DNA of 45,310 bases from a virus: positions 1 to 45,310 of IMG/VR virus record IMGVR_UViG_3300006789_000045; one strand, given 5' to 3'. This document shows positions 14,360-44,026 of this stretch, piece after piece. The position numbers were made by a program, and so were the translations under genes. The number at the start of each line of letters is the position of its first letter. Position 1 is the first letter of the stretch. The notes beneath the pieces are model-generated. The model did not search any database, was not told the DNA's origin, and was given only the letters and a program-made list of their open reading frames with translations.

Positions 14360-17224
14360 ATGTCACAAGATATTACAAGCCCGGGAGGATCCGCGGCGCT
14401 CACTCCAAATAAGTCCACAGCACGAGTCCGCGATCAAAAATCATTAACTAATGATAACAGAACACGTGGTAACATTGAGCAATATATATTAAGTCAAAAC
14501 ATTGAAAAGGCTGCCAATTATTTTAATTCTAGAAGGGAGTTGTTTAATTATCAAACTTTTAGACAGGTCAACGGCGACGGCACCCAGATGGTCAACAAGC
14601 TGAGAGGAATTGAAAACATTGAGGTTTTCAATAAAGTGAAGACCTCGGTTCTCTCGCTTATGATGCCAAAAGTGAGGATTTATAAGGTTAGTCATGAAGA
14701 GGCCGGCTTTGCAGAAGATGGCACACCGGATGAAGGCAAGACACAAAGACTACCCTTTCCTTGCTACAAAGAATTTAAATTTTCTGATAATTTTGGTCAG
14801 GAAACTGCAGCAACTGTACAAGATTATTTGAATTATGAAAGCACGAAGCCTTCTTATCGAAATGTTGGTTTAGAATCCTTCTCTATTATACATGATGGCA
14901 AATCAGAAGGTATTTTAGAGCAGAATATACAGTGTTCTTTGAAACTTACTTTTAAATCCTTGAAAGACCTAACGGCACAACCACCTGGTGAACCACATCC
15001 GGAGAAGGGCGGCCTCAGATACGTCGATCTAATATTATGGCCACCCGCCAGATACGTTAAGGACGCCGAGACGCATAATCCACTGCATTACGAGATAAAA
15101 GCTATGATTGGCTATTCAGCACCCAGCAAGCAGGCTTTAGAGGGGCTGAACCTGACACTGAAAGAGGTTGAAATGCTTAGTCATATCGAAAAACTAAATA
15201 CTATAGTTTCTCTTTCCTTGGTCGATTATAAAATAGGCATAGGTGAACAGGGGCAAGTCACCCTGACAGCTAATTACCGAGGGAGACTAGAAACAATAGT
15301 TGGCACCAACTCAGTTAATATTTTTCAAGATACTATGCGTCTTGGCCACGGCGGCAAGGAGAAGATATCAAAATCGGTCGACCCGAAGAATAATCCAGCA
15401 CACATTTTCAAGATTCAATCCATGATACATGAGTTTTTTAAAGAACTAAACCAAACTCACTGCCGAAATGATAAATGCTCGTCTAGAAAAAAACTCTTGC
15501 AAGTTTTAAAAAGTGATACAATATTTTCATCTATTTATCGCGAAGCCGGAGGTCCTGCGGTAACTGAAAACAGAGGGGTCGTCAAGGTAGTGGGGAATGG
15601 CGAGGATATATTCTTATGGTTTAAACAGGCTATAAATTCTAATAGAATGCTTGCTCTTATCCGTCGCCGTGTCGGCGGATTTAAAAAGGATGTATATAAA
15701 ACATTCGTAGACCAACTAATAACCGGTAATGATGCCCGCGACGAGTTGGACCCAGAAACTAGGCTGTTCTGTATCAACGTGCCAAAAGAGGAAGTTGTTA
15801 AGTATTTAGGCGCCGTCGAGCCTCCACCTGACAACCAACCGATTGCAACTTTAGATGAGCTGACCAAACAAGGAGTCAGCTATAGCGATGCCATGCAACA
15901 AATTATGACTGGTGGCACAACTGCTGTCCCTCGCGGCAGTTCTAAAATTAAAATTGATCGATGCAATAAAGCAATCCAAAAGGACGCCGCGTTACAGGAG
16001 ACCGTCGCGCAAGATATCTCTTCACTAGAGGCTAATCGAGTTGAAGATATAAACAAAGAAAAAAAAGACCCTAGCCGTAAAACAACGCTTAATTTTGATG
16101 GAGAAAATTATAAATTTTATTTTATTTATTTTGGTGACATCATAGAATTGGCATGTAAGAATGCCGGCTTTAAAGCTTTGGATTTAATTAACGAAGAGGA
16201 GGTAGGAGGGGAGGCTTCAACCGCCCCATCATACCCGCCTTTTCCTCCTAATACTTACTACGGATACGGGAAAAAAAGGGGGGATATAAATAAAGAAGCT
16301 GGACGTAATTATGGCCTAGGCCAAACCCGCGTGTTGCTTGGCCCCCTTGAATATACTGATCCTGAAACTGGAGTAATAAAAAATATTAATCTAGCCCAGT
16401 TCCCCATATCCTTTAACTATTTTAGGTCATGGTTTACGAAGCGTATCATTAGGAAAAAGAGTCCTGCGATGTCTCTTGGGGGTTTCCTAATTGAGTGCAT
16501 GAATAAGTTAATTATGCCGGCCTTGGGAGCTGGCATGCCCAGTAGTGTCAAGCCGTCAAGAACCAGATCTGCCATACAGGCCCTCACACTACCGGGCAAG
16601 CAAACCGGTGAAGACCCAGTAGAAATCTGTGGCAGGATTGTAGGAAGGATAGAAGAAACGCTTCCCCTTCACAGAGTATTGAACGTAGATGGTTCAGTAT
16701 TTAGAGAGGCCTATTTGAACAGGCTCATCGCCGGCCAATCATCTGAGACGATGATAAAAACTTCACATGATTATCTTTTGATACGCACAACCACAGCTAA
16801 GGACATGATGGAAAGAACTGGAAACCCTATTGAAGATCTTAAAGACGGAATCTATCATTTCAACATCGGCTCTGACAATGGCTTATTAAAAACCATGGAT
16901 TTTAACAAGGTGTCTATAACGGGCTTGGCAGAGGCCAAATGGAAAATTGCTAGAGATCAAGGTGCTGATCCTCTCGGCCAGTTGATGTTCCCTTTTGACA
17001 CTAATTTAGATTTAATTGGCACTTCTTTATTTGTACCTGGTATGTATTATTATGTTAATCCTAGCATGTTAGGGCTGGGAAATGTTGAAGATGCAAGGTC
17101 AGTGTCATACCAGCTTGGCTTAGGGGGGTATCACATCGTGCAGACCGTGACAAGTACTATTCGAAAAGGAACCTACACGACTAAAATAGAGGGCAAACAA
17201 ACATTCCAAGGAAGACCTAAGTAA
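14360..17224 (+). CDS. Large baseplate hub-like structural protein (954 aa)
   Basis: No single family is certain. The C-terminal ~60 residues (LFVPGMYYYVNPSMLGLGNV, then YQLGLGGYHIVQTVTSTIRK and GTYTTKIEG) have the ending common in baseplate hub proteins of contractile tails (a PG..... LGLGGYY.V..V.H....G.F.T.L.G pattern). The central region is helical and mixed, and there is no membrane segment. Its place after the LysM-like wedge gene supports a hub role analogous to T4 gp27 (391 aa) but much larger, so it may combine several hub functions. It overlaps the next gene by one base (TAATG). Confidence 0.55.
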   Translation: MSQDITSPGGSAALTPNKSTARVRDQKSLTNDNRTRGNIEQYILSQNIEKAANYFNSRRELFNYQTFRQVNGDGTQMVNKLRGIENIEVFNKVKTSVLSLMMPKVRIYKVSHEEAGFAEDGTPDEGKTQRLPFPCYKEFKFSDNFGQETAATVQDYLNYESTKPSYRNVGLESFSIIHDGKSEGILEQNIQCSLKLTFKSLKDLTAQPPGEPHPEKGGLRYVDLILWPPARYVKDAETHNPLHYEIKAMIGYSAPSKQALEGLNLTLKEVEMLSHIEKLNTIVSLSLVDYKIGIGEQGQVTLTANYRGRLETIVGTNSVNIFQDTMRLGHGGKEKISKSVDPKNNPAHIFKIQSMIHEFFKELNQTHCRNDKCSSRKKLLQVLKSDTIFSSIYREAGGPAVTENRGVVKVVGNGEDIFLWFKQAINSNRMLALIRRRVGGFKKDVYKTFVDQLITGNDARDELDPETRLFCINVPKEEVVKYLGAVEPPPDNQPIATLDELTKQGVSYSDAMQQIMTGGTTAVPRGSSKIKIDRCNKAIQKDAALQETVAQDISSLEANRVEDINKEKKDPSRKTTLNFDGENYKFYFIYFGDIIELACKNAGFKALDLINEEEVGGEASTAPSYPPFPPNTYYGYGKKRGDINKEAGRNYGLGQTRVLLGPLEYTDPETGVIKNINLAQFPISFNYFRSWFTKRIIRKKSPAMSLGGFLIECMNKLIMPALGAGMPSSVKPSRTRSAIQALTLPGKQTGEDPVEICGRIVGRIEETLPLHRVLNVDGSVFREAYLNRLIAGQSSETMIKTSHDYLLIRTTTAKDMMERTGNPIEDLKDGIYHFNIGSDNGLLKTMDFNKVSITGLAEAKWKIARDQGADPLGQLMFPFDTNLDLIGTSLFVPGMYYYVNPSMLGLGNVEDARSVSYQLGLGGYHIVQTVTSTIRKGTYTTKIEGKQTFQGRPK

Positions 17225-18549
17225 TGACTAAAAATCTTACCGAATCCATGTTCGAATCAAAACTTAATTTAGGCAACTTTTATCCTAAGTTACCTGGTAT
17301 TAAGAATTTCGATCTTGAAAGAGAACATTTGTTTTATGGTCGGATCGATCCTGATGGTGATGTTGTTTATTTGGAAGACTCAAACTTAAAACAAATTTAT
17401 TCTGGGAAAAAACAGACTCATTTTGCTGCTGATTTTGTTAGTGAGGCGTTCTCTGACTTTCGACAAAACGTAAAGAAGGCTTCAGACAAAAACTTTCTTA
17501 ATAGGAACGGTGTTTTTCCTACTAATCTAAAGGCTTACAAGGCCTGGGACCACCGTGATTTAGAATATAATTATAATCAATACATTAATAAAATTTACGT
17601 TGATTTTGTCAATAATTATCTTGAAAAAGATCGCCGACATGAAAAAATAAAAGACCATAAAACTTTTATTAAAGAGTTTCTTAATTATGCGATTGCAGCT
17701 GCGTACAATTTTCCGATTACAAAAACTGGATTTATTGTGTCAAGACATTGTAGTCCTTTCGTAAGTGGCCTCATGTTTGAGATCGCCGGCCAGAACCATG
17801 GCATCGCTACTAATACCATGGTTATGAAATATGTCAATGATCCAAACTTCTTATTTATTGTCAACGAGGCAAAGAAATTTGGATTTATGGTTGATAAAAA
17901 TGCTCCATGGAGATTAGTTTTTAATCTGGCTTCCGGGTGGACCGGATCCGCTCCTCTCCCAGGCAAAGCAGCTGGTGCACAGAGATTCATGGAAAGATTT
18001 GGTGTCAACTATGAAAATGTATTTAAATTCTACTACAGAAAGGCTTATTTGGCAGAGATGGTGAACATAGCAAATTTGTTTTATTCTCTTTATGATAGTT
18101 TTTATAAACAATATGGCACCTACGAAGTGGCCGCTTATACTAAGTGTACTAAAAATAGAGACTCTTATAATCTTAGGGTTATAAGTACACGCAAGCCTAG
18201 AGATTTTCCGCAGGACATGAGCGGGGAAGAACACTACGAATACTGGTTAAAGATAATTCTTAAATTAAGATTAAAAGAGACGCGCCGTGCACACACACCA
18301 AGTAATTTTCGTTTTTTTGCTGATGAGATGTTGGATAACAAACGCACCCTCGGCGACGCCGCCGCATTAAAATATATTAATGACTTGACAAAAGGGTTTT
18401 TTGTTCCTAACTTTGTACAAAGAGGGACTTTTTGGAATGGCTTTGAAGAACAAGAATATCAGCAAGGCAGAAAAAAAGCGATTGAGTTGGCAATAAATCC
18501 GGATTTGGTTAGGACAGCCCTCATAGGAACCAAGAATATTATAAAATAG
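17224..18549 (+). CDS. Conserved-looking protein of unknown function at the end of the virion block (441 aa)
   Basis: I do not recognise this family. It is a soluble, Lys/Phe/Tyr/Asn-rich, mostly helical protein (for example IYVDFVNNYLEKDRRHEKIK) without signal peptide, membrane segment or cysteine cluster. The section ITKTGFIVSRHCSPFVSGLM looks like a structured core. It is coupled to the hub-like gene (TAATG) and ends 12 nt before the family-A polymerase, so it bridges tail and replication-type genes. A virion protein is the default guess; a role with the polymerase/FtsZ-like pair cannot be excluded. Confidence 0.6.
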   Translation: MTKNLTESMFESKLNLGNFYPKLPGIKNFDLEREHLFYGRIDPDGDVVYLEDSNLKQIYSGKKQTHFAADFVSEAFSDFRQNVKKASDKNFLNRNGVFPTNLKAYKAWDHRDLEYNYNQYINKIYVDFVNNYLEKDRRHEKIKDHKTFIKEFLNYAIAAAYNFPITKTGFIVSRHCSPFVSGLMFEIAGQNHGIATNTMVMKYVNDPNFLFIVNEAKKFGFMVDKNAPWRLVFNLASGWTGSAPLPGKAAGAQRFMERFGVNYENVFKFYYRKAYLAEMVNIANLFYSLYDSFYKQYGTYEVAAYTKCTKNRDSYNLRVISTRKPRDFPQDMSGEEHYEYWLKIILKLRLKETRRAHTPSNFRFFADEMLDNKRTLGDAAALKYINDLTKGFFVPNFVQRGTFWNGFEEQEYQQGRKKAIELAINPDLVRTALIGTKNIIK

Positions 18550-18561
18550 ACGAGTCATGTT

Positions 18562-19740
18562 TTGCTTTTCCAGTTGCTTGATAAAAAAAATGAATGCAAT
18601 TCTCTATACATAGATGGACATTTTAGAGATGATTATAAGCAAGTCGACCTTACTAGCACTTGGGCTCCGACCTTGGCTTTAAGTGACTGCGATTTGGAGT
18701 ATGCCAGCATATGGGCTCACGGAAAGACGTTAAGTGATTGCTGTCCGGATGAACTCAAAGAAGAATGGGGATATATCAACAAGAGAATCGCTGCTTTTGT
18801 AAACTCTTTTAAGAACAGTAAAGTTGACTTAGACGATGTGTGCTTTTATGATCTATTACCAGAAAATTTCTTAAAGCAGTTCTGTGCTTTAAAAAATAAA
18901 ATCAGCGCATGCGTATTCGAACTGGAGACGAAGCCCATGAACCATGATTTTATGGTAGAGCTTATTCTTTTTCTTAAGAAGTTAGAATCGCGCCCCCTGT
19001 TGGTTAACTATAAAAATCTAGACATGACAAACAGCCAAGTTAGAAATATATTTTCAAAAGTTAAGAATTCCCCTAGGTATGTCAGATACAATCCATGGGG
19101 GACTGTCACCGGTAGGCTAACTACCACAAAAAATAGCTTTCCCATCCTGACTTTGAACAAGGAGTTAAGACCGGTGCTGCAGCCAAGAAACGACTGCTTT
19201 GTGGAGCTGGATTTCAATGCTGCTGAACTTAGAGTTCTGTTTTCTCTTCTAGGCCAGGACCAGCCGGATGGGGACATTCATGAATGGATTGCAGCCAACA
19301 TATTTGATAATAAATATACTCGCGACCAGAGCAAGAAGAAAGTTTTTGCGTGGCTCTATAACCCCAAGGCCAAAAACAAAAAATTGAATAATTATCTAAA
19401 TCGCGACGCGCTGTATGATAAATACTATAGTAATGGTATTGTACAGACACCCTTCGCCCGCGACATAGCTGTTGATCAAGATAAAGCTGTGAACTACTTA
19501 ATACAGAGTACAACAAGCGACCTTTTTTTAACTTCAGCTATTGAGGTTGAAAAAGCACTAGAGGGAAAGACCTCTTCGGTAAGTTTTTGTATCCACGATA
19601 GCTTGGTAATTGATTATAGCAAGGAAGACAGAGAGCTACTGCCCAACTTGATGAAACGATTTTCAGATACAAAGCTCGGCTACTTCAAAACAAATCTAAG
19701 TATGGGTAAAAATTTCGGTACGATGAGGAAAATAACATGA
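18562..19740 (+). CDS. Compact family-A DNA polymerase-like protein (392 aa)
   Basis: The C-terminal ~220 residues carry PolA palm and fingers motifs in order: TGRLTTTK at ~184-190; motif A VELDFNAAELRVLFSLL with Asp217; an O-helix-like RDQSKKKVFAWLYNPKA at ~254-270 (compare R...AK...FG..YG); NYLIQSTTSDLF at ~321-332 (compare N.P.QGTAAD); and motif C SFCIHDSLVI with His345-Asp346. Family A enzymes are usually 600-900 aa. Here the N-terminal ~170 residues show no 3'-5' exonuclease motifs. The start is uncertain: TTG at 18562 is the first in-frame start after a stop, while an ATG at 18557 is out of frame. It overlaps the next gene by ATGA. Confidence 0.8.
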   Translation: MLFQLLDKKNECNSLYIDGHFRDDYKQVDLTSTWAPTLALSDCDLEYASIWAHGKTLSDCCPDELKEEWGYINKRIAAFVNSFKNSKVDLDDVCFYDLLPENFLKQFCALKNKISACVFELETKPMNHDFMVELILFLKKLESRPLLVNYKNLDMTNSQVRNIFSKVKNSPRYVRYNPWGTVTGRLTTTKNSFPILTLNKELRPVLQPRNDCFVELDFNAAELRVLFSLLGQDQPDGDIHEWIAANIFDNKYTRDQSKKKVFAWLYNPKAKNKKLNNYLNRDALYDKYYSNGIVQTPFARDIAVDQDKAVNYLIQSTTSDLFLTSAIEVEKALEGKTSSVSFCIHDSLVIDYSKEDRELLPNLMKRFSDTKLGYFKTNLSMGKNFGTMRKIT

Positions 19741-20570
19741 ACATAGTTGGTCTAGGGAACGCCGGCTGCCAGATAGCCAAAACCTTTCAAAATTATGAAC
19801 AATATCAAGTTTTTTGCATTGATGTAGAGGATAAAGGATATCCTACTTTCTTACAGGTAGAACATCAAAATAGTCACGAGGATTATGAAAAAAACTATAA
19901 GAAATTAAAACTATCAAAATGTAAAGGAGAAACAACCTTTATTCTATGCGGTACTGGCAATATAAGCGGCTGTGCACTGAGAGTTTTGCAGCAGATAAAA
20001 GACAGCCCTGTTACTGTGATATATATTAAGTCAGATCTAGCAAATTTAAGCCATGAGCAAAAGCTGAAGGACCGAGCTACGTTTGGCATTTTACAACACT
20101 ATGCTAGGTCAGCATTGCTAAAAGATGTATATATCGTCTCCAATCAACTGGTTGAGAGGGCTATTGATGGTATCTCTATCAAGTCTTATTGGAGTGATAT
20201 TAATAATATAATTTCCAGTACATATCATATGTTAAATGTTTTTGATAATACGGAACCGCTGTTAACGACAGCATCACCGCGGCCTATCACAGCAAGAATA
20301 GCCACACTTGGAGTGGTAAACTACGAAACCAATAAAGAAAATATGTTTTACGATCTACAGTATCCTCGATTAAAAAAATATTTTTATGGTATCAACGAAA
20401 ACTCAATAGAGGAAGATAAAGAGATTCTACACAAAATTCGAGCTTTCGTAAACCAAAAAGCCGAAAAAAATATTGCGGCGAATTTTTCCATATTTTCAAC
20501 TTCCTATGAACACAACTACATTTATTCTACGCATTATGCATCTTTCATACAAGAACAAAAAATAGAATAA
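19737..20570 (+). CDS. Putative FtsZ/tubulin-superfamily GTPase (277 aa)
   Basis: Element order matches FtsZ/tubulin. There is an N-terminal glycine loop IVGLGNAGCQIA (GxGxxG, residues 5-10) and a strand plus signature-like loop TFILCGTGNISG (67-78; compare GGGTGTG). Then come strand VTVIYIKSD, helix SHEQKLKDRATFGILQHYAR, VYIVSNQLVERAIDGISI (131-148; compare FtsZ LITIPNDKLL.....GISLLDAF) and a long H7-like helix. After ~180 there is a smaller domain with ARIATLGVVNYE. The glycine loop is degenerate (C-G-T-G) and a clear T7-loop NxDxxD is not seen, so GTPase activity is unproven. Phage relatives such as PhuZ and TubZ build filaments that position DNA. It is coupled to the family-A polymerase gene. 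Confidence 0.55.
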   Translation: MNIVGLGNAGCQIAKTFQNYEQYQVFCIDVEDKGYPTFLQVEHQNSHEDYEKNYKKLKLSKCKGETTFILCGTGNISGCALRVLQQIKDSPVTVIYIKSDLANLSHEQKLKDRATFGILQHYARSALLKDVYIVSNQLVERAIDGISIKSYWSDINNIISSTYHMLNVFDNTEPLLTTASPRPITARIATLGVVNYETNKENMFYDLQYPRLKKYFYGINENSIEEDKEILHKIRAFVNQKAEKNIAANFSIFSTSYEHNYIYSTHYASFIQEQKIE

Positions 20571-20666: not shown

Positions 20667-21404
20667 ATGGGTATTGATTTAGCAAAGATGAAGGCAAAGC
20701 GCGACGCCTTGGAAAGTCGCGGCGGTCAGAGCGTTTTTTGGCGCCCGGAAGATGGAGAACAAACAATTCGTATTGTTCCTACTCCTGATGGTGACCCGTT
20801 TAAGGAATATTGGTTCCACTATAATTTGGGTTCAAATCCGGGCTTTTTGAGTCCGAAGAAGAATTTTGGTGAAGATGACCCACTAAATGACTTTGTGCGC
20901 CAGCTATATAAGGATGGTTCGGATGAGTCTATCAAGATGGCCAAGGACCTATCTGCTCGTCAGCGCTTCTTTGCGCCCGTTCTCGTACGCGGCGAAGAAG
21001 AAAAGGGTGTACGACTATGGGGTTTTGGAAAGACTGCCTACAAGGAGCTGTTGAATTTAGTACTTAACCCTGAGTATGGTGATATCACTGACGTTAACGA
21101 GGGTACTGATTTGACCATTAATTATGGTAAGCCCCCTGGCGCGCAGTTCCCTCAGACTACCATTACACCTCGTCGCAAATCGTCGCCCATGACGAAGGAT
21201 GAGGAGAAGACTGCGCTGCTTTTGGATCAGATTCCTAGCTTTGATGATGTCTTTGATCGAAAGAGCCCACAGCAGGTTCAGGTTATGCTAGACGAGCACC
21301 TTCTTAGTGGAGAGGATGCAGAGGGCGTCTCTTCTGAGACGAGCAAGTATAATAATTCAGAGACTTCGGTCGTGGACAAAGCTTTTGCTGAGCTTCTAGG
21401 ATAG
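20667..21404 (+). CDS. 32: Single-stranded DNA-binding protein, gp32-like (245 aa)
   Basis: Coats ssDNA during replication and recombination. The N-terminal basic segment (LAKMKAKRDALES), then GQSVFWRPEDGEQTIRIVPT and later FFAPVLVRGEEEKGVRLWGF followed by GKTAYKELL, match the gp32 OB-fold core (compare F......G...IR.LP and Y...V...... ..G..... ..G..I...I). The acidic tail ends in VVDKAFAELLG, the type of C-terminus used to recruit partner proteins. The Cys-rich zinc site of T4 gp32 is absent, as in several marine relatives. T4 gp32 is 301 aa. It has its own promoter and a structured leader and precedes uvsX. Confidence 0.88.
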   Translation: MGIDLAKMKAKRDALESRGGQSVFWRPEDGEQTIRIVPTPDGDPFKEYWFHYNLGSNPGFLSPKKNFGEDDPLNDFVRQLYKDGSDESIKMAKDLSARQRFFAPVLVRGEEEKGVRLWGFGKTAYKELLNLVLNPEYGDITDVNEGTDLTINYGKPPGAQFPQTTITPRRKSSPMTKDEEKTALLLDQIPSFDDVFDRKSPQQVQVMLDEHLLSGEDAEGVSSETSKYNNSETSVVDKAFAELLG

Positions 21405-21475: not shown

Positions 21476-21814
21476 ATGGAAGTTTTTATAATAATAGCCA
21501 TGTCAGTTGGTTTATTTGTTTCAGGAATGTCGTTAGGTGCTTATCTAGAAAATAAAAGGCTTTATTCAGTAAATCTTGTTAGGGAAGTTAACGAGTCTCT
21601 TAAAACCACACAGAATATTCTCTTGCCTTTAGCAGACAAAATAACACATTTCGACGCTCGCCAGAGCCGCTTTTTAAACCACACCCTCGTTGATTATAAC
21701 AATGTAAGAGATCCAGACATAACAATGGAAATACCTATATATGAATCATTGACAGACGAATTAAGTTTAAAAGAGGAACAATGGCAAAGAAAACAAAGAA
21801 ACTGGGAAGATTAA
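21476..21814 (+). CDS. Small membrane-anchored protein (112 aa)
   Basis: Residues ~3-24 (VFIIIAMSVGLFVSGMSLGA) form one N-terminal transmembrane segment, followed by a ~85-residue soluble, partly helical tail with acidic and Gln-rich stretches. No family recognised. No convincing ribosome site precedes the ATG. The 3' end overlaps uvsX by 34 nt, so translation of the two is likely linked. Its place between gp32 and UvsX suggests, but does not show, a role in tethering replication or recombination complexes to the membrane. Confidence 0.6.
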   Translation: MEVFIIIAMSVGLFVSGMSLGAYLENKRLYSVNLVREVNESLKTTQNILLPLADKITHFDARQSRFLNHTLVDYNNVRDPDITMEIPIYESLTDELSLKEEQWQRKQRNWED

Positions 21815-22893
21815 GTATTGGTGAGATGAGAAGCCTCATCAATAAGAAAGCAGGCATGGAAGTCGCTTTTGATCTAACAAAAGACAGTCCGACACAGGTA
21901 AAAGATTGGATTCCAACCGGCTCGCGTTGGCTTGATAGCATTATATGTCAAGGTCAATTAGCCGGGATCCCAGTTGGTAAAATTGTAGAGATCGCCGGCC
22001 TTGAGGGCTCAGGCAAATCTTACATGGCGGCCCAGGTCGCCGCAAATGCCCAAAAGATGGGCATCGATGTGGTATATTTTGATTCCGAATCAGCTATTGA
22101 TCCTCATTTTTTGGCTAGCGCTGGTTGTGATGTCGACAATATTTTATATACGCAACCTCCTAGTGTCGAATATGTCTTAGAGACTATTGAAGAACTGCTA
22201 GGCTCAAATGATAACAGGATGTTGTTCATCTGGGATTCTTTAGCTTTAACACCTTCCGTGAGCGATGTGGAGGGGGATTTTAATCCACAATCTTCCATGG
22301 CTGTTAAACCCAGGATTTTAGCTAAAGGTATGTCCAAACTAACAGTACCCATCGCCGCTTCTAAATCAACTTTTTTGGTCTTGAACCAACTTAAGACAAA
22401 TATCACTAGAAGCCCGTCCGAAGCCATGACTACTCCCTATGTTACACCTGGCGGAAAAGCGATGCATTACGCATATTCACTACGTGTCTGGTTAACGAAG
22501 CGTAAGGCCAAAGCATCTTTTATCGTCGATGATAATGGATATAGAGTTGGTTCTGAAGTGAAAGCAACGCTAAAGAAAAGTCGTTTCGGCACAGAAGGAC
22601 GTCAGTGCACATTTAAAATTCTTTGGGGAGGAGACGTCGGAATTCAAGATGAAGAAAGTTGGCTCGAAGCAGTTAAGGTTTCTGAAAATGTGAAACAGTC
22701 TGGCGCTTGGTACAACCTTGTATACGAAGACGGGACGTCCGAGAAATTTCAAGCAGCCAAATGGAAAGAAAAATTACAAAGTGAAAAATTTAAGAATCGA
22801 GTACTTCAGATAATGGACGAAGAAATCATCATGCGCTTTGATAGAAAAGAAGGCAAAGCAGAAGAATTCTACGACATTGATCAAGAACCATAG
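21781..22893 (+). CDS. uvsX: Recombinase UvsX/RecA-like (370 aa)
   Basis: ATP-dependent strand-exchange protein for recombination, repair and recombination-primed replication. Walker A GLEGSGKS is at 73-80, Walker B MLFIWDS at ~147-153, and the RecA-core stretches VVYFDSESAID and VTPGGKAMHYAYSLRVWL are clear. Length compares with 391 for T4 UvsX. It starts inside the end of the membrane-protein gene, so expression is coupled with gp32-side genes. No UvsY candidate is identified in the window. Confidence 0.93.
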   Translation: MAKKTKKLGRLSIGEMRSLINKKAGMEVAFDLTKDSPTQVKDWIPTGSRWLDSIICQGQLAGIPVGKIVEIAGLEGSGKSYMAAQVAANAQKMGIDVVYFDSESAIDPHFLASAGCDVDNILYTQPPSVEYVLETIEELLGSNDNRMLFIWDSLALTPSVSDVEGDFNPQSSMAVKPRILAKGMSKLTVPIAASKSTFLVLNQLKTNITRSPSEAMTTPYVTPGGKAMHYAYSLRVWLTKRKAKASFIVDDNGYRVGSEVKATLKKSRFGTEGRQCTFKILWGGDVGIQDEESWLEAVKVSENVKQSGAWYNLVYEDGTSEKFQAAKWKEKLQSEKFKNRVLQIMDEEIIMRFDRKEGKAEEFYDIDQEP

Positions 22894-23742: not shown

Positions 23743-24717
23743 ATGTATGAAGGCAAAAGGATCATAATTATTGATCAGTTGAACCTTTTTTTTCGAAATT
23801 ATATAGTCAACCCTAGTTTATCTATTAACGGGTCTCCCATAGGGGGTCTAAAGGGGTGCTTCCAAAGCATACAAAAAATTTGTAGAGAGTCTAACCCAGA
23901 TATGATTATCATCTGCTGGGACGGCGAAGGTGGTTCGAAGAAGCGCAAGCTAATGAAAAAAGACTACAAGGCCGGCCGCAAACCAATCAGGCTTAATCGT
24001 GCTATTAGAAACATGTCGGAGTCGCAAGAGACAGAAAATAAGTTTTGGCAGCAGGCCAGGTTGATTGAATATTATAACCATGTGCCAATCGTACAATTTA
24101 TGTTCAAGAGTACAGAGGCAGATGACATCATTGCTTATTTAACACAGGTAAAAGAGTTGGAGAAGGCTGAAAAACTTATTATTTCTAGCGACAAGGATTT
24201 CTTTCAGCTTTTAGGTACTAAAACAGTTCAATACCGACCGGTGCAGAAAGAAGTACTCAATCAAAACATAATTCTTGAGAAGTTTGATATACATCCAACT
24301 AATTTTGCCATGGCCCGGGCAATGGAAGGAGACAAATCGGACAACATAGAAGGTATCGAAGGACTAGGTATCAAGACTATTGCTAAAAGATTTCCCTTTT
24401 TGAGGGAAGAAAAGCCGGCTAACTTTTCAGATGTCCTGGGGCACTGTAAGAAGATGTCACAGGAAACTAACGTCAGGGCCTATCAGAAGGTGTTAGATAG
24501 TGAAGACCTTTTAAGGCGCAACTACCATATGATGCAGCTTTATGCTCCTAGTTTGGGCATCGATGCAAAAAAGACCATTCATGAAACTATTAAAAATCCA
24601 GATCTTTCTTTTAACAAGACAGGGTTGATTAAAATGATGATGAAAGACGGATTTGGAGAGATTAATTTCATTGAACTCTTTCAGCATTTTAATAGAATCT
24701 CCATAGACAATCGATAG
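23743..24717 (+). CDS. rnh: RNase H / 5'-3' exonuclease, T4 Rnh-like (324 aa)
   Basis: FEN/5'-nuclease family enzyme that removes RNA primers. N-terminal IIIIDQLNLFFRNY carries Asp11, then EADDIIA (125-131), SSDKDFFQLL (148-157) and the helix-three-turn-helix GDKSDNIEGIEGLGIKTI (196-213); together these give the metal-binding acidic residues and DNA-contact motif of T4 RNase H (305 aa). It sits between the 114-aa protein and the replicative helicase. This nuclease could compensate for the exonuclease missing from the compact family-A polymerase. Confidence 0.92.
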   Translation: MYEGKRIIIIDQLNLFFRNYIVNPSLSINGSPIGGLKGCFQSIQKICRESNPDMIIICWDGEGGSKKRKLMKKDYKAGRKPIRLNRAIRNMSESQETENKFWQQARLIEYYNHVPIVQFMFKSTEADDIIAYLTQVKELEKAEKLIISSDKDFFQLLGTKTVQYRPVQKEVLNQNIILEKFDIHPTNFAMARAMEGDKSDNIEGIEGLGIKTIAKRFPFLREEKPANFSDVLGHCKKMSQETNVRAYQKVLDSEDLLRRNYHMMQLYAPSLGIDAKKTIHETIKNPDLSFNKTGLIKMMMKDGFGEINFIELFQHFNRISIDNR

Positions 24718-24751: not shown

Positions 24752-26149
24752 ATGACTAAAGAACCTGGCTTCTCGAAATATGGGAAGCAGTTTCAAGAAT
24801 CGTTGGCCCAAATGATTCTTGAAGACCGCCCATTCGCAGACCAGCTTGAAGAGGTAATTGATACTCGATTCTTTGAGTTGAGTTACCTTCGCGTATTTGC
24901 GTCAAAAATATACGATTATCGTAGAAAATATGGCGTGCACCCCACCAAGAAGATCCTAGCCCCGATTCTGAGGACGGAGTTAGAAAACCTTAACGAATCC
25001 ATGCAAAAACAGGTAAGAGACTATTTTGCTAGAATTTGTATCAAGAGTGTCGAAGACAGCCAATATATCAAAGAGACAAGTTTAGATTTCTGCAAGAAGC
25101 AAAAACTCAAAGAAGCATTGATGCAGTCTGTAGATTTGATTCAGAACTCTTCGTACGATGAGGTGCGCGAAGTTATTGACACAGCTCTTAAGCTGGGGAC
25201 CGATAATAATTTTGGTCATGATTTCTTGAAAGATTTTGAAGCGCGATACGAGATCAAAGCTAGAAACCCTGTCTCTACGGGCTGGGAGAAGATTGATTCT
25301 ATAATGTCCAAGGGCTTGGGTACCGGCGAACTCGGCGTGGTTATAGCGCCCACGGGAGCTGGTAAGTCGATGGTCCTGGCTCATTTGGGATCTCAAGCAA
25401 TCAAGTTAGGCAAGAACGTTGTGCATTATACTTTAGAACTTTCTGAGATGGTGACAGGACAAAGATACGATAGCTGCATCAGTGGTATACCTTTAAATGC
25501 TCTTTTCCACCAAAAAGATGAAGTATTAGAAACCATTGGAGATATAGAAGGGACTTTAATTATCAAGGAGTACCCCACGAAAACAGCTAGTACCAATACT
25601 ATAAGAGCGCATTTGGAAAAATTAAAAAAAAGAAATCATAAAATCGATATGATTCTAGTAGATTACGCTGATTTACTTAAGCCAGTGACAAATTATAAAG
25701 AGAAGCGTAGTGAACTAGAATCTATTTATGAAAACCTGCGCGCCATCGCTCAGGAATACAAGTGTCCAGTTTGGACTGCATCACAAACGAATCGAACAGG
25801 ATTGAACGCAGAAATAGTAACTATGGAATCCATTTCAGAAGCCTTTAATAAATGTTTTGTGTCAGACTTTATTTGTTCTATCTCTAGGACGATTAGAGAC
25901 AAAACAGCGAACACTGGAAGAATTTTTATTGCAAAAAATAGGAATGGTCCAGATGGTCTGGTGTTTCCTCTTTTTATGGATACCAGCAATGTTAAAATAA
26001 AAGTTTTAGCCAAGGTTGACACTCCAGCAATCTCACCGGTCATGGCGCCTGGTGATTTAGCAGCTGCGCTTAGCGAAAAATATATACAACAGAGAAACGC
26101 AAAAAAATATATGCGAACAGGAGGAATTAACAGTGGAGCTGCAGAATAA
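24752..26149 (+). CDS. 41: Replicative DNA helicase, gp41/DnaB-like (465 aa)
   Basis: Hexameric 5'-3' helicase of the replication fork. The N-terminal ~150 residues form a helical domain; the C-terminal RecA-like motor has Walker A APTGAGKS at 199-206 and Walker B MILVDYADLL at 300-309, followed by ASQTNR, the typical DnaB H3 region, and a basic SRTIRDK loop. Length matches T4 gp41 (475 aa). It overlaps the RNR gene by 17 nt, and the RNR ribosome site AGGAGG lies inside its 3' end. No primase (gp61-like) gene is seen in the window. Confidence 0.92.
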   Translation: MTKEPGFSKYGKQFQESLAQMILEDRPFADQLEEVIDTRFFELSYLRVFASKIYDYRRKYGVHPTKKILAPILRTELENLNESMQKQVRDYFARICIKSVEDSQYIKETSLDFCKKQKLKEALMQSVDLIQNSSYDEVREVIDTALKLGTDNNFGHDFLKDFEARYEIKARNPVSTGWEKIDSIMSKGLGTGELGVVIAPTGAGKSMVLAHLGSQAIKLGKNVVHYTLELSEMVTGQRYDSCISGIPLNALFHQKDEVLETIGDIEGTLIIKEYPTKTASTNTIRAHLEKLKKRNHKIDMILVDYADLLKPVTNYKEKRSELESIYENLRAIAQEYKCPVWTASQTNRTGLNAEIVTMESISEAFNKCFVSDFICSISRTIRDKTANTGRIFIAKNRNGPDGLVFPLFMDTSNVKIKVLAKVDTPAISPVMAPGDLAAALSEKYIQQRNAKKYMRTGGINSGAAE

Positions 26150-28304: not shown

Positions 28305-28577
28305 GTGTTATATCCCTTAAATAAATATTTGGTAGTGGAACCGATAGAAGAAACTAAAACTATTTCTGGGGTATTGGTTCCGGAGAGCGTTAATATCGAT
28401 ACCAGCGCTTTTAAACTGGTTAAAATTTTAGAGCCGCATACAGCTTCCCAGCTGACATCTGATATGAAAATTTTGGTACCGACTCACATGATCGAAGAAG
28501 CTACCTTTTCTGGTAAAACATACTATTTAGTAACAGAAAATAATGTAGTAGGATTCTACTCAGAGCAGGAACAATGA
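28305..28577 (+). CDS. groES: GroES-like co-chaperonin (90 aa)
   Basis: Caps a GroEL ring during folding. LYPLNKYLVVEPIEETKTIS followed by GVLVPES matches the start of GroES (PL.DRV.V.......T..GI.LP.S), including a mobile loop with the hydrophobic triplet VLV (compare IVL). Length fits GroES (97 aa) and T4 gp31 (111 aa). The start is GTG at 28305 with CAGGAG inside the previous gene; the end overlaps the next gene by ATGA. The window also encodes a GroEL at 39969, so the phage may form a complete chaperonin, perhaps for capsid folding as in T4. Confidence 0.82.
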   Translation: MLYPLNKYLVVEPIEETKTISGVLVPESVNIDTSAFKLVKILEPHTASQLTSDMKILVPTHMIEEATFSGKTYYLVTENNVVGFYSEQEQ

Positions 28578-30948: not shown

Positions 30949-33900
30949 TTGGAAAGAATTGAATCTAAAATCCCATTTGTTGGGTTGCACGCTCACAGCG
31001 TCGCAGGATCCGTATTCGACGGATTCGGATATCCGCAAGATCATATGGATTTTGCTTACGAGAACGGCATGAACGCGCTAGCGCTTACCGACCATGGTAA
31101 TATGAACGGTATGTCACATCAAGTGCTCCACGCCGAGAAGATGAGGGCACAAGGCAAAAACTTTAAGCCCATCTTCGGCGTCGAAGCATATTTTATACCC
31201 TCTATTAAAGAATGGAAAGAGGAATATGAAAAGGTCAAGCTAGACAAGAAACAAGCTAGAAAAATTATTAATGATACGGATAAGGTTGAAATTGAAGATG
31301 AGGCCTCTTCGAAGAGCAAATCTAAAAGTAAGATTAATTCGTATGGGCACTTGGTATTGTTAGCTAAGAACCAGGTTGGTCTTAACAACATATTTAAGAT
31401 TGTATCCGACTCACATCAGGGTGACAACTTCTATCGGAAACCACGTCTGGATTATGACCTACTTAAAAAGTATGGAGAGGGGATTATTGCGTCTTCTGCT
31501 TGCATTGGCGGTGTATACGCTCAGAATTATTGGGATAATCGAGAAAGTGGCCCCGAAGCTATTTTAGGATCCATGCGCACAACAACACAACGCATGATCG
31601 ATTGTTTGGGGGACCGCTGGTATGGAGAGCTGCAGTGGAACAACATACCTGAGCAACATGAATTAAATAAGTATGTTATCCAAATGCACGAAGAATTTGG
31701 CATTGATCTCATATCAACAGCAGATAGTCATTATCCGAGCCCCGATGCTTGGAAGGATCGTGAGCTTTATAAAAGGCTTGGATGGCTAGGCGGCAAAAAC
31801 AAGCCGGGCTATATGAAAGAAGAGTTGCCAGCAAGTGTTGAAGAAATTGGGTACGAACTTTACCCCAAAAATGGCGATCAGATGTGGGAGTCATACAAGA
31901 AATACGCAGAAAAATGTGGTGTAGAATATGATGACGCTATAATTTTCGATAGTTTAACAGCAACACACTGGATTGCTCATGAGCTTATCGAAGATTTTAT
32001 GCCAGATGCCACTGTTCGTTTGCCGGGATTTCTGGTACCAGAAGGCGCCTGTGCTAAAGAAACCTTAGTTGGGGAGGCCGTCAACGGTCTTCGTAGGGTG
32101 TCCTTGCAAGATAACAAAGAATACGTTGACAGATTAAAGCACGAATTGACTGTTATTAATGAAAGGGGGTTTAGCAAATACTTTCTTACCATGAAGGCAA
32201 TTGCCGATACCGCTAATAAACATATGCTCTCCGGCCCCGGACGCGGGTCTGCTGCCGGCTCGCTTGTAGCGTATGTACTTGGTATTACCCAGGTTGATCC
32301 AATCAAGTATGGATTGCTTTTTAGTAGGTTTTTGAGATCAGACACAGCTGATTATCCGGATATTGATTATGACGTCAGCGATGCTTTTGGATTAAAAGAA
32401 ATATTAGCTGCAGAGTGGGGAGAAACCACAGTTGTACCAATTTCAAACTTTAATACGCTGCAGCTTCGTTCGCTCATTAAGGACATCGGCAAATTCTATG
32501 ATGTGCCATGGCTAGAAGTTAACACAGTGACAAGTAAAATGGTTAGAGAAGCAATGCCAAAAGCCAAACAAGACCATGATATTAAATCAGGTGTTTACGT
32601 ACCAACTTTTGAAGAAGTTATGAAGTACTCTGAGTCATTGATCAGCTTTTTGCAAAAATATCCGCACATTAAGACCCACGTGGAGGCACTGGTGGGGCAG
32701 ATCCGTTCGACTAGTCGCCATGCTGGTGGTGTTGTAATTGGGGAAGACTTAGATAGACATATGCCACTGATTTGTTCTAAGGGCGTAATACAAACACCAT
32801 GGTCTGAAGGACAAAACGTACGCCACTTAGAACCGCTTGGATATATTAAGTTTGATTTGTTGGGTCTTTCAACTCTTGAAATGATCCAAAGTGCTGTCGG
32901 CCATGTGCTCAAAAGACACCACGGAATTGATAATCCGACTTTTGCTAATATTAAGGACTATTACGACAGTACGCTGCATCCGGATGTACTGGATTTAAAT
33001 GATAAAAAGGTATATAGAAATATCTTTCAGAAAGGCAAGTTCGCTGGCATTTTTCAGTTCACTAATTCCGGCGCCCAACGTTTGAGTATAAATTCCAAAC
33101 CTAATGATATTATTGATATTTCTGCTATCACCTCAATTTATCGGCCCGGGCCACTTGGAGCCGGCGTCGATAAAGCATATATCAAGGCTAAGAAGAACAA
33201 GAGCGCCAATTATCTTATTGATGCTGTTGAAGAAGTAACCAAGGAAACATATGGTTTTCTTATTTTCCAGGAGCAAATTGCTTTGTTGGCCCACAAACTA
33301 GGAGAAAATATCTCTCTGGAGGAAGGCAACAAATTACGCAAGCTTCTAACCAAAAAGGGCACAGGTAAGGGTTTAGAAGAGAAAGAAGTAATTAAAGAAA
33401 AATTTGTTAGAGGGTGCCTCAATAAATCGATACCAGCTGATACAGCCAAAAGCCTTTGGCAAAATTTTGAATATTTCTCAGGCTATGGTTTTAATAAATC
33501 GCATGCAGTATCTTATTCTATTTTATCTTACCAGTGCGCTTGGCTATTCAATTATTACCCTGAGTGCTGGATGGCTGCTTTCTTAGACAAGGAGCCTGAA
33601 TCACGTAAAGAGGCTGCTATTAGCTTGGCTCAGAAATTTGGCTTTGAGATTGAAAACATCAATATTAATACTTCGACCAGACAATGGGAGATCAGTGATG
33701 ATGGTAGGACCCTTATTCAACCTTTTAGCTCAATTAAGGGCTTGGGTGACAAAGCAGTCGACCAAATTATGCAAAACAGGCCATTTGAAAAGATCGAAGA
33801 TATCCTCTTTAACGAGGAAATTATCCATGCCAAGTTGAACAAGAAAGCCCTGGATGTGTTGTGCCGCTCCGGCGCGCTAGACTGCATCGTTGATGATCGA

Positions 33901-34377
33901 TTTAATGGGTGCAAACATTTTTGGATGGCGTGTATACAAGACAAGCCAAAAAACCAAAAGAAGCTAGATGAGAATATTGAAATTTATTCGCCGGAAGAAG
34001 ACTTCACCCCCGAGGAAAAGATTGAGTATATTTCTGATTTAACTGGTATGTTTCCTTTCGATCTGGTCTTGACACAAGAAATTAGAGATTCTATTGGAAG
34101 AAATTGTGTTCCAGCTCTAGGCAACTGGGATAAGGATCTGGGTGTTGCTTGGTTTATACCAAGAGAAGTCATCCCCAAGAAAACCAAAAATGATAAACCA
34201 TACTGGATTCTTAAGGTGATAGATAGCACCTCAACGATGACCACAATTAGGTGCTGGGGGATTAAAGAATACGACCAAATTCATTTGAACCGACCTTATG
34301 CAGCCAAGCTGGACCACAACAAAGACTGGGGCTTTAGTACTCGCTCAGTTAGGCACACATTTAAATTACTAGGATAA
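30949..34377 (+). CDS. dnaE: DNA polymerase III alpha subunit, DnaE (family C, 1142 aa)
   Basis: Full-length bacterial-type replicative polymerase. The PHP domain begins at once (FVGLHAHSVAGSVFDG with His14/His16, then LALTDHGNMNG). The palm has GPGRGSAAGSLVAYVLGI (429-446), YPDIDYD with catalytic Asp471 and Asp473, and GYIKFDLLGLSTL with the third Asp at 636 (compare E. coli 401, 403, 555). Further on are SIYRPGPLGAG, YGFLIFQEQI and GYGFNKSHAVSYSILSYQCA. An OB-like C-terminus follows. E. coli DnaE is 1160 aa. The start is TTG at 30949 with GAGAGG 5 nt upstream; any later ATG would remove the PHP histidines. No clamp or clamp loader is in the window. Confidence 0.95.
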   Translation: MERIESKIPFVGLHAHSVAGSVFDGFGYPQDHMDFAYENGMNALALTDHGNMNGMSHQVLHAEKMRAQGKNFKPIFGVEAYFIPSIKEWKEEYEKVKLDKKQARKIINDTDKVEIEDEASSKSKSKSKINSYGHLVLLAKNQVGLNNIFKIVSDSHQGDNFYRKPRLDYDLLKKYGEGIIASSACIGGVYAQNYWDNRESGPEAILGSMRTTTQRMIDCLGDRWYGELQWNNIPEQHELNKYVIQMHEEFGIDLISTADSHYPSPDAWKDRELYKRLGWLGGKNKPGYMKEELPASVEEIGYELYPKNGDQMWESYKKYAEKCGVEYDDAIIFDSLTATHWIAHELIEDFMPDATVRLPGFLVPEGACAKETLVGEAVNGLRRVSLQDNKEYVDRLKHELTVINERGFSKYFLTMKAIADTANKHMLSGPGRGSAAGSLVAYVLGITQVDPIKYGLLFSRFLRSDTADYPDIDYDVSDAFGLKEILAAEWGETTVVPISNFNTLQLRSLIKDIGKFYDVPWLEVNTVTSKMVREAMPKAKQDHDIKSGVYVPTFEEVMKYSESLISFLQKYPHIKTHVEALVGQIRSTSRHAGGVVIGEDLDRHMPLICSKGVIQTPWSEGQNVRHLEPLGYIKFDLLGLSTLEMIQSAVGHVLKRHHGIDNPTFANIKDYYDSTLHPDVLDLNDKKVYRNIFQKGKFAGIFQFTNSGAQRLSINSKPNDIIDISAITSIYRPGPLGAGVDKAYIKAKKNKSANYLIDAVEEVTKETYGFLIFQEQIALLAHKLGENISLEEGNKLRKLLTKKGTGKGLEEKEVIKEKFVRGCLNKSIPADTAKSLWQNFEYFSGYGFNKSHAVSYSILSYQCAWLFNYYPECWMAAFLDKEPESRKEAAISLAQKFGFEIENININTSTRQWEISDDGRTLIQPFSSIKGLGDKAVDQIMQNRPFEKIEDILFNEEIIHAKLNKKALDVLCRSGALDCIVDDRFNGCKHFWMACIQDKPKNQKKLDENIEIYSPEEDFTPEEKIEYISDLTGMFPFDLVLTQEIRDSIGRNCVPALGNWDKDLGVAWFIPREVIPKKTKNDKPYWILKVIDSTSTMTTIRCWGIKEYDQIHLNRPYAAKLDHNKDWGFSTRSVRHTFKLLG

Positions 34378-35140: not shown

Positions 35141-35409
35141 TGAAAATAAATAAGGAAGAATGGCTGAAGGCGTCTTATGAATACCCCTTCAAAGGTAAAG
35201 AAGCTAGTGATACACCTCGCGCTGTTGAACACGCGGCTCACTACAACAAGGGAAATATCGAAACAATAGACGTGATAGAAGATTGGGGTTTGAATTTTCA
35301 TTGTGGAAATGCCGTTAAGTATATTGCTAGGCATATGCATAAAGGAGAAGCTAAGCAAGATATAAGAAAAGCCATCTGGTATCTTAAGAGATATTTGGAG
35401 AAGTTATAA
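35140..35409 (+). CDS. DUF3310 protein (89 aa)
   Basis: HYNKGNIETIDVIEDWGLNF, then HCGNAVKYIARHMHKGEAKQ and DIRKAIWYLKRYL, is the DUF3310 signature (HY...I..IDVIE..GL.F..GN..KYI.R...K....DL.KA.WYL.R). This small family is common in phage nucleotide-metabolism regions and has been loosely called nucleotide kinase-like; its reaction is not established. It lies between dUTPase and the IMPDH/GMPR-like gene with one-base overlaps on both sides. Confidence 0.88.
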   Translation: MKINKEEWLKASYEYPFKGKEASDTPRAVEHAAHYNKGNIETIDVIEDWGLNFHCGNAVKYIARHMHKGEAKQDIRKAIWYLKRYLEKL

Positions 35410-36431
35410 TGAGAAAAGCTTATTCTTTTGATGATGTTTTGTTAACGCCACAATATAGCACAATTGAAAGTCGCAGTCATATTGACATAGGAAATAATTT
35501 AGATTCGTGTACACGGCTAGAACTACCTGTTATGTCAAGTCCGATGGACACTGTGACTGAAGCGAACATGGCCACTGTCATGAGTCAGCTTGGCGGTTTG
35601 GGGGTTATTCATAGATATAACTCGATCGAGGAACAGGTGAAGCTTGTTCGTACACTCAGCACGTCGCTTACAACGCCTATCGCTGCAGCAATCGGTGTAA
35701 CTGGCGATTATGAAGAAAGAGCATGTGCCCTCTACGATGCTGGGGCTAGAATTGTCTGTATTGATGTGGCTCATGGTCACCATTCTTTAGTGAAAAATGC
35801 TTTGTCTGTCATTCGTGAAGTTATGCATGATAAGGTGCACGTAATGGCTGGCAACGTCGCCACCCTTGAGGCCTTTGATGCACTGGCCTCCTGGGGAGCA
35901 GATTCAATTCGCGTAGGCATTGGTGGCGGCTCTATATGCTCGACTAGGCTAGTTACGGGCCATGGCATACCAACTTTTCAGAGCATTTTAGATTGCGCGC
36001 GTACTAGTTATGATACTAAAATCATTGCTGATGGTGGTATCAAAACGACTGGCGATATGGTGAAGGCGTACGCAGCCGGCGCCGACTTCGTGATGATTGG
36101 ATCAATGTTAGCAGGGACAAGTGAAACTCCAGGTGAGGTATTCTCTGGCAATTCAGGTAAAAAATACAAAGTCTACAGGGGCATGGCCTCGTCAGCAGCC
36201 CAAAAAGACTGGAGGGGCAAATCCTCTGCTCCAGAAGGGGTTTCAACTACCATTCCGTTTAGGGGCAGTGTTGAAGACATCCTTCAAAATATTGCTGGTG
36301 GCATTCGCAGTGGCCTGTCTTATTCAGGTGTATACAGCCTGGAAGAGCTTCGAAGCAAGGCATCTTTCTCATTACAAACAGGAGCAGGACAAGTAGAGAG
36401 TAACACTCATATTCTTTGGAGGGGCAAATGA
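35409..36431 (+). CDS. IMP dehydrogenase / GMP reductase family enzyme (340 aa)
   Basis: TIM-barrel purine nucleotide oxidoreductase. [19 protein letters not shown] is the family start. [17 protein letters not shown] (171-187) holds catalytic Cys178, followed by [20 protein letters not shown] and [13 protein letters not shown]. The flap [10 protein letters not shown] and the end [17 protein letters not shown] are present. The CBS pair of standard IMPDH is absent, and the length matches GMP reductase (~346 aa). Either IMP to XMP or GMP to IMP is possible, and the sequence alone does not decide. It is coupled to DUF3310 (TAATG) and overlaps the next gene by 4 nt. Confidence 0.88.
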
Positions 36432-37805: not shown

Positions 37806-38465
37806 ATGAGTTGGAACGCAAATTTTTCAGACAAAGAAGAAGAGCAAGAAAAAAAAGAAGAACCGGCAGATCTTCTGTCCGTGTTCAATATGCAAGACAA
37901 ACCTGAGTTACGCATAACTGGTATTTACGGTAACATCGAAGAGGAAAAGTGTTCCGAAGCTATTTACGGCCTCCGCGCCCTACACTTGTCTGGTTGCAAC
38001 GAAGTTTTATCCAACCCGGATGACCCAGAGTCAGACATATTATGCAGCTACGAACCGATAGATTTTTATATTTCAACTTTCGGCGGCTTGGCGACTGAAA
38101 TGTTTGCTGTCTATGATACTATTCGCAGCTTGAGGGGCATGTCTCCTATCCACACCTACGGCCTGGGAAAGGTAATGTCAGCCGGCGTCCTTCTGTTAGC
38201 TTCCGGCACTAAGGGTGAACGGAGAATCGGCAAGCATTGTAGAGTTATGATCCATGGCGTCGTAGCTGGTACACACGGACACATAGCCGATGTTGAGAAT
38301 GAATTTGCTGAAACAAAGTTTACTCAGAAGATGTACATTAAAGCCTTATCCGAGGAGACGAACATGGCAGAGAAACAAATTAAAAAAATGGTTGATCGCA
38401 AAACAAATGTTTACATTGATGCTGAAGAAGCGGTAAAATTGGGAATTGCTGATATAGTTGTCTAA
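37806..38465 (+). CDS. ClpP-like serine protease (219 aa)
   Basis: A catalytic triad in ClpP order is visible: Ser125 in GKVMSAGVLLLASG (compare GQAASMGA.LL..G), His150 in RVMIHGVVAGTHG, and Asp197 in MVDRKTNVYIDAEEA (compare DRD.F..A.EA). The N-terminal ~30 residues are acidic and coiled (KEEEQEKKEEPADL), unlike host ClpP. No Clp ATPase is seen in the window, so it would use a host ATPase or act alone. Its position after the acidic, scaffold-like gene makes it a candidate head-maturation protease in place of T4 gp21; host-protein turnover is the alternative. Confidence 0.85.
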   Translation: MSWNANFSDKEEEQEKKEEPADLLSVFNMQDKPELRITGIYGNIEEEKCSEAIYGLRALHLSGCNEVLSNPDDPESDILCSYEPIDFYISTFGGLATEMFAVYDTIRSLRGMSPIHTYGLGKVMSAGVLLLASGTKGERRIGKHCRVMIHGVVAGTHGHIADVENEFAETKFTQKMYIKALSEETNMAEKQIKKMVDRKTNVYIDAEEAVKLGIADIVV

Positions 38466-43062: not shown

Positions 43063-43491
43063 ATGACTACACTTACTGCTTACAGACCGAGCCTTCTTGG
43101 CCATGGCGTGTTCAACGAGATCTTCGATTCAATGTTGGATTTTCCGCAATTGATGCAGAGGACAACACAGGGCTACCCTGTCGCTGATATTTATAGAGAA
43201 GATGGAGGAGATACTGTAATGGAATTTGCCCTGGCGGGATTTTCTAAGGAGGATCTTTCTATTGAGATCAAATCAGAAAAGAAAAGCATTACGGTCAGTG
43301 CGAATAATGATAACCTCGATATACGTGAACGTAACCGTCGTGTTGCTCGCCGAAGTTTTTCCAAGACCTACGTAAACTACGATAATAATTTGGATCTCGA
43401 AGCCGTACGCGCCGAGTTCGAAAACGGGCTACTCAGATTGGTTATCCCGACACGAGCCGAAGCCAAGCCCCTTCGCGTAGAAATTAAGTAA
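43063..43491 (+). CDS. hsp20: Small heat shock protein Hsp20 (142 aa)
   Basis: Alpha-crystallin-type holdase that keeps unfolded proteins soluble. PVADIYREDGGDTVMEFALA and GFSKEDLSIEIKSEKKSITV begin the domain; RRSFSKTYVNYDNNLDLEAV, then RAEFENGLLRLVIPTR, carry the family's (F)S...LP..V....A...NG.L.I.IP pattern. The usual I/V-x-I/V tail motif is represented by LRVEIK. Length matches IbpA (137 aa). Hsp20 genes are common in marine T4-like phages. Confidence 0.93.
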   Translation: MTTLTAYRPSLLGHGVFNEIFDSMLDFPQLMQRTTQGYPVADIYREDGGDTVMEFALAGFSKEDLSIEIKSEKKSITVSANNDNLDIRERNRRVARRSFSKTYVNYDNNLDLEAVRAEFENGLLRLVIPTRAEAKPLRVEIK

Positions 43492-43573: not shown

Positions 43574-44026
43574 GTGGCATACGTATACGTAACGGATATA
43601 AGGAAGCTAGCGAAAGTTTGTGAGCCATGCGTATCCAAATTGGATGGTATACAAATAGGCAATAAGCTTATTGAGATACTTGCTCAAGAGCCCGACGCCA
43701 TCGGCCTAGCCGCAAATCAAGTAGGGATCGACGCAGCAGTATGTGTTATAAAAGCTGCAAAGCCGCTTATTCTCATAAACCCTAGGATAGTTGGCAAGTT
43801 CGGAAAAAGTTTCTTTCAAGAGGGTTGTCTTTCCTTCAAGGGTGACTATGTTTTAACTGAAAGATGGACCGATATCGTTGTTACGAACGACAATCACACT
43901 AACCAATTATTTTTTTCTTTTGAGAAGAACGCTTTGGAGTGTGTTTGTGTACAACACGAAATTGATCATCTAAATGGAACCACGATGTTTGATCGTGCTG
44001 TAGACAAGGAGTTATTTGATGTCTAG
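43574..44026 (+). CDS. def: Peptide deformylase (150 aa)
   Basis: Removes the N-formyl group from new proteins. All three PDF motifs are present: GLAANQVG at 44-51, EGCLS at 83-87, and QHEIDHLNG with metal-binding His128/His132 and catalytic Glu129. Similar in length to bacterial PDFs (~165 aa) and without a C-terminal extension, as in marine phage PDFs. The start is GTG at 43574, with GGGGAG in the right arm of a hairpin. It overlaps the next gene by 8 nt. Confidence 0.95.
   Translation: MAYVYVTDIRKLAKVCEPCVSKLDGIQIGNKLIEILAQEPDAIGLAANQVGIDAAVCVIKAAKPLILINPRIVGKFGKSFFQEGCLSFKGDYVLTERWTDIVVTNDNHTNQLFFSFEKNALECVCVQHEIDHLNGTTMFDRAVDKELFDV

Follow-up and report, generated by a model that had tools for sequence, protein, structure and literature searches.

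A divPolA1-type family A DNA polymerase opens a conserved replication gene block in phages with a DnaE-type regular polymerase

Divergent family A DNA polymerases of the divPolA1 type were described by Yutin et al. (2024, Virol J 21:200, PMC11348598) in 14 phages with an additional, regular DNA polymerase (PolA, PolB or PolC). The published proteins keep the palm residues, have an inactivated exonuclease of which a remnant fold is left, and have a truncated thumb; replication genes are found downstream, the regular DNA polymerase lies near chaperonin (GroEL/GroES) genes, and the genomes measure about 155–190 kb (PMC11348598). In the literature searched, the name divPolA1 is used only in this paper and its preprint. 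Our comparison includes the copy of Flavobacterium phage immuto 3-5A (MW353176), the reference phage of that paper, and leaves aside those of GOV_bin_630 and LR796625. Gene 1 of immuto 3-5A encodes a PolA of 441 residues and is followed by two small genes and by those for SSB, RecA, 5′-3′ exonuclease, DnaB and RNR. The opposite end of the record holds sheath, tail completion, hub and tape measure genes and then unknown genes sized like those of the DNA studied here.

This DNA, below called the window, is a virus record of 45,310 bases, given as one strand. It is probably a fragment of a larger genome; the largest records among its relatives reach 147–204 kb. Its sole PolA gene has the start codon TTG, encodes 392 residues and lies in the following surroundings, where a relative counts as eligible if its locus extends far enough for the gene in question to be seen:

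17224..18549, + strand: conserved gene of 441 residues directly 5′ of the polymerase (76/77 eligible relatives)
18562..19740, + strand: divPolA1-type family A DNA polymerase (open reading frame, Pfam, PHROG, alignment, model, tree)
19737..20570, + strand: conserved gene of 277 residues with a 4-nt overlap with the polymerase stop codon (79/79 eligible relatives)
20667..21404, + strand: gp32-like single-strand DNA-binding protein, SSB (Pfam/PHROG, context)
21781..22893, + strand: RecA-like recombinase (sequence; match to the immuto RecA/RadA gene, 2e-8)
23743..24717, + strand: 5′-3′ exonuclease (PF02739), corresponding to the nuclease half of Pol I (Pfam, PHROG, immuto match)
24752..26149, + strand: DnaB-type replicative helicase (Pfam, PHROG, immuto match)

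The polymerase matches PF00476 (DNA_pol_A) in hmmscan with an E-value of 4.3e-16 and 59.3 bits, above the gathering cut-off of 34.3, and phrog_17 (DNA polymerase) with 1.8e-22. A single-sequence search returned 2 relatives, a first alignment 15, and an alignment of 13 sequences at least 584, all on viral contigs. A profile search of the GTDB species genomes found no relatives, so there is no sign of a host-derived copy, and INPHARED gave at most weak matches to the PolA core (about 23–26% identity), mostly in actinophages. Complete copies measure 389–401 residues with a conserved start position and share 40–62% identity with the window polymerase among 83 aligned sequences; 93 more were then added, giving 176 in total. 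A chance reading frame is ruled out by the conserved length, start position and catalytic residues, and a fragment of a larger Pol I by the conserved length and residues. Each of 20 records holds exactly one PolA gene.

The conserved positions fall in four segments of the gene, all recognised in the alignment:

19108..19116, + strand: invariant T-G-R motif, residues 183–185; R185 is presumably Klenow R668
19210..19233, + strand: motif A, DFNAAELR, residues 217–224, with the metal-binding D217 and the steric-gate-type E222, both invariant
19321..19359, + strand: motif B (O-helix), R254..K258..F262..Y266
19594..19602, + strand: motif C, H345-D346-S347, HDS where Pol I has HDE

Residues R185, D217, E222, R254, K258, Y266, Q315, H345 and D346 are invariant in all 176 aligned sequences, and position 262 is a phenylalanine in 172 of them. 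Motif A of the window reads LDFNAAELR in context and the O-helix R254-DQS-K258-KKV-F262-AWL-Y266; 151 of the 176 sequences have HDS as motif C, and the remainder HDA or HDN. The first seven residues we take to correspond to R668, D705, E710, R754, K758, Y766 and Q849 of the Klenow fragment, and H345, D346 and F262 to H881, D882 and F762, using the established Klenow numbering, assigned through motif alignment and a Taq alignment. Klenow E710 excludes rNTPs, and the presence of E222 and F262 would argue for the use of dNTPs by the window polymerase. In the immuto-type divPolA1 (L097, positions 1–1326, and relatives L098–L177) the motif A glutamate is replaced by histidine, the O-helix arginine by tyrosine and the motif C histidine by tyrosine; its substrate use may differ from that of the marine branch, to which the window belongs.

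An AlphaFold2 model of the polymerase, built with 83 sequences, has a pLDDT of 93.1 and a pTM of 0.91. Comparison by Foldseek and VIA-align gave the large fragment of Bst Pol I as the best structural match (Z 24.7 over 371 residues, rmsd 4.4 Å, 16% identity), with model residues 1–389 superposing on Bst chain 316–876. The N-terminal part is best described separately:

18562..18939, + strand: N-terminal part, residues 1–126, with no recognisable relative alone and no exonuclease site

Modelled alone, residues 1–126 reach a pLDDT of 90.2 and give no notable match to Pfam, to PDB profiles or by fold. This part may be what is left of an exonuclease domain together with a shortened thumb, as in the published divPolA1; the full model aligns from Bst residue 316, but residues 1–126 alone match nothing. 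Among residues 1–175 of the 176 sequences D7 is the only invariant acid; an acidic residue in more than 90% of the sequences is otherwise seen at positions 92 and 97 alone. Hence a four-acid DEDD 3′-5′ exonuclease site cannot form in this part. Judged from its sequence, the divPolA1 in the window is without a working 3′-5′ exonuclease and non-proofreading. These results bear out a sequence-only reading of this DNA, which had described a minimal family A polymerase of about 390 residues with motifs A, B and C and no 3′-5′ exonuclease: the comparison with Pol I that it had proposed returned a PolA palm fold, and the loss of motif A or C acids in close homologues, which would have spoken against it, was seen in none (D217 and D346 in 176/176).

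The closest known system is divPolA1, here compared through the copy of immuto 3-5A. Scored against immuto gene 1, the window polymerase reaches 63.9 bits, compared with 27.7 bits against the regular PolA of the same phage, and a profile–profile comparison with the immuto divPolA1 covers residues 97–386 with an E-value of 9e-18. In a maximum-likelihood tree with E. coli Pol I, T7 gp5, two actinophage PolAs and the immuto regular PolA as outgroups, the marine and immuto divPolA1 branches are joined with a support of 99.7/100; the long branches and few outgroups carry some risk of attraction, and synteny provides independent support. Tail genes of the two phages match (sheath 2e-61, hub 5e-29, tube 9e-6, and a 101/111-residue gene 2e-6), as do the replication genes (SSB 8e-48, RecA 2e-8, 5′-nuclease 3e-47, DnaB 3e-82). 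For the unknown genes immediately on either side of the polymerase, pairwise comparison gave no detectable match between window and immuto. Because it is closer to immuto gene 1 than to the regular PolA, groups with it in the tree and shares its gene order, we file the window polymerase as a divPolA1, in a branch with DnaE as the regular polymerase. The second polymerase of the sequence-only reading is thus of an already published type (PMC11348598).

The polymerase sits 3′ of tail/baseplate-type genes on the same strand and is the first gene of a conserved block consisting of PolA, the 277-residue gene, SSB, RecA, 5′-3′ exonuclease and DnaB. The sequence-only reading had placed it at the end of the virion genes and apart from replication; the first part holds, but the gene is not detached from the replication genes, since it opens their block. 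Among eligible relatives the upstream neighbours are a 111-residue tail gene (67/67), a 954-residue gene (68/68) and the 441-residue gene listed above, and the downstream ones, after the 277-residue gene, are SSB (72/72), RecA (57/57), the 5′-nuclease (45/46) and DnaB (37/43). To counter the bias of loci anchored on PolA, the SSB and 277-residue genes were also used as search anchors, and PolA was found upstream of SSB in 38/38 and of the 277-residue gene in 49/49 eligible loci, two sets that overlap in some contigs and are not fully independent. This indicates that divPolA1 is a core gene in this phage group. The 441-residue upstream protein has no Pfam, PHROG or PDB match. The 277-residue protein starts with a glycine-rich segment, VGLGNAGCQIA, and matches TrkA_N (Rossmann-like) weakly in 7/37 cases (best 6.8e-6), and a profile search of the PDB returned no match. 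An FtsZ/tubulin-like identity, considered because of the glycine-rich start, was dropped in view of these profile results. It is possible that this protein is a partner of the polymerase.

Further downstream the window encodes the presumed main replicase and six host-like genes:

28305..28577: GroES-like (Pfam Cpn10)
30949..34377, + strand: DnaE-type DNA polymerase III alpha, presumed main replicase (PHP, palm, finger, HHH)
35409..36431: IMP dehydrogenase/GMP reductase-like (translation)
37806..38465: ClpP-like (translation)
39969..41549: GroEL-like (translation)
43063..43491: small heat-shock protein-like (translation)
43574..44026: peptide deformylase-like (translation)

The DnaE is complete, belongs to family C and is unrelated to the window PolA, and the two chaperonin genes, GroEL-like by sequence in the case of the second, share its neighbourhood. 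The pairing of two unrelated polymerase families had been called unusual, and Yutin et al. (2024, PMC11348598) indeed report such pairs in 2 of 1,514 genus-level phage subtrees. DnaE is present in 26 and the 5′-nuclease in 29 of 34 large relative records; by position, the large records missing either gene stop shortly downstream of PolA. The PHP domain of the DnaE keeps HAH and DHGN-type motifs. This phage DnaE may carry its own proofreading activity, in which case divPolA1 would be the only polymerase lacking it. No family B polymerase was found in 19 records and no DNA ligase in 21; a DnaG-like primase, encoded elsewhere, turned up in 4 of 19 records, and many of the remaining records are short.

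Our preferred reading, to which we give an even chance, is that divPolA1 fills short gaps together with the phage 5′-3′ exonuclease. In this mechanism divPolA1 would be an active, DNA-specific, distributive and non-proofreading polymerase consisting of palm, fingers and a short N-terminal part, and DnaE rather than divPolA1 would be the main replicase. The exonuclease would open gaps at lagging-strand RNA primers and at recombination or repair intermediates, and divPolA1 would fill them, with the DNA covered by phage SSB. The polymerase and the 5′-nuclease, which are one protein in bacterial Pol I, are here encoded by two genes of a single conserved block. The computed results that point to gap filling are the family assignment, the intact active site with its Pol I residues invariant in 176 sequences, the Pol I fold, the absent exonuclease site, the fixed SSB/RecA/5′-nuclease/DnaB block, the single PolA per record, and the occurrence of DnaE and 5′-nuclease in most large records; from these we infer the catalytic activity, the gap filling and the cooperation with nuclease and SSB. 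Gap repair, one of the roles initially suggested for this gene, is in our judgement a sensible one.

The same block occurs with a regular PolA in immuto and with regular polymerases of types A, B or C in the published set (PMC11348598), so the step served by divPolA1 should be independent of the type of replicase. Replicase-independent synthesis after a 5′-nuclease is most likely lagging-strand primer replacement or the filling of recombination or repair patches. As several relatives have a DnaG-like primase, divPolA1 would not be needed as a primase. As no ligase was found in the 21 records, a full phage-encoded Okazaki pathway is absent and a host ligase would have to seal the product. Since immuto keeps divPolA1 despite its full-length PolA, replacing Pol I can be only part of the explanation. 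Tentatively, divPolA1 could be the primer-replacement polymerase of a split phage "Pol I" that is fixed in a large clade while the A, B or C replicase is swapped, and the 277-residue neighbour could be its partner.

A further point against gap filling is that recombination roles would suit the RecA and SSB of the block as well. In a possible, if rather doubtful, alternative divPolA1 is a lesion-bypass or recombination-primed (D-loop) polymerase that works with RecA and SSB in a role like that of Pol theta or Pol nu, and not on the lagging strand. The missing proofreading site and the close, invariant RecA and SSB neighbours would be consistent with it. The structural search also matched Pol theta and Pol nu, but not ahead of Pol I, and no insertions like theirs are evident in the 392 residues. 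The start codon is TTG in 46 of 82 polymerase copies (loci L001–L096 and the window), compared with 3 of 76 for the next gene; as the commonest start, it suggests a deliberately low expression, which would also suit such a role. However, the 5′-nuclease and the helicase are linked to the polymerase just as tightly as RecA and SSB.

It is unlikely that divPolA1 is a main polymerase of the fork, acting for instance on the lagging strand, with DnaE as an accessory. divPolA1 and its block are constant where the regular polymerase varies, and Yutin et al. remark that in this context it is less obvious what the regular polymerases do (PMC11348598). Yet divPolA1 has no proofreading site and a minimal DNA-binding part, and DnaE is full length with a PHP domain.

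An RNA-making or primase-like enzyme is very improbable. The HDS form of motif C, in place of HDE, is that of single-subunit RNA polymerases, but E222 is invariant and F262 nearly so, and several relatives have a DnaG-like primase. An RNA polymerase role was considered by Yutin et al. for divPolA2 (PMC11348598). Least credible is an enzyme of the virion or of packaging that would process the ends of the DNA, a role the sequence-only reading had entertained: the gene does lie 3′ of tail/baseplate genes on the same strand, but at this point two modules meet, as they also do in immuto phages, and the constant linkage to SSB, RecA, nuclease and helicase in the block that the polymerase opens leaves packaging unsupported.

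The set of divPolA1 grows from 14 published genomes (PMC11348598) to include uncultured phage contigs in the many hundreds. What is new is a large branch that carries DnaE, with at least 584 loci, the core status obtained through two other anchors, an active site that is more Pol I-like than in immuto, and an N-terminal part with no recognisable relative alone. Because all Pol I active-site residues are intact, the DnaE-bearing branch is a good choice for expression. It also suits the question of why two unrelated polymerases are kept and which replication step is replicase-independent, and a Pol I-type enzyme of fewer than 400 residues could serve as a tool.

Among known systems, divPolA2 of barbaviruses is likewise a divergent extra PolA without an exonuclease domain, but by its published description it is set apart by a variable gene neighbourhood and an unrelated N-terminal domain (PMC11348598). 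With the Pol I large fragment (Klenow, Bst, Taq) the window protein shares palm and fingers with identical active-site residues, and the full model superposes; it differs in its length, which falls about 190 residues short of that of the Bst large fragment, in having HDS instead of HDE, and in an N-terminal part with a single invariant acid and by itself no recognisable exonuclease domain. T7 gp5, a replicative enzyme that is the only polymerase of its phage and whose exonuclease is active, and other replicative phage PolAs share the family A palm and fingers. However, T7 gp5 falls outside the divPolA1 clade in the tree, and the active 3′-5′ exonuclease of this type is absent in the window protein, which has no four-acid DEDD set. 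The immuto divPolA1 is also an extra divergent PolA beside a regular polymerase, with catalytic aspartates kept and exonuclease lost, in the same order of tail genes followed by SSB, RecA, 5′-nuclease and DnaB. It differs in its length (441 residues against 392), in its regular polymerase (PolA instead of DnaE) and, by alignment, in having H, Y and Y where the marine branch has E222, R254 and H345.
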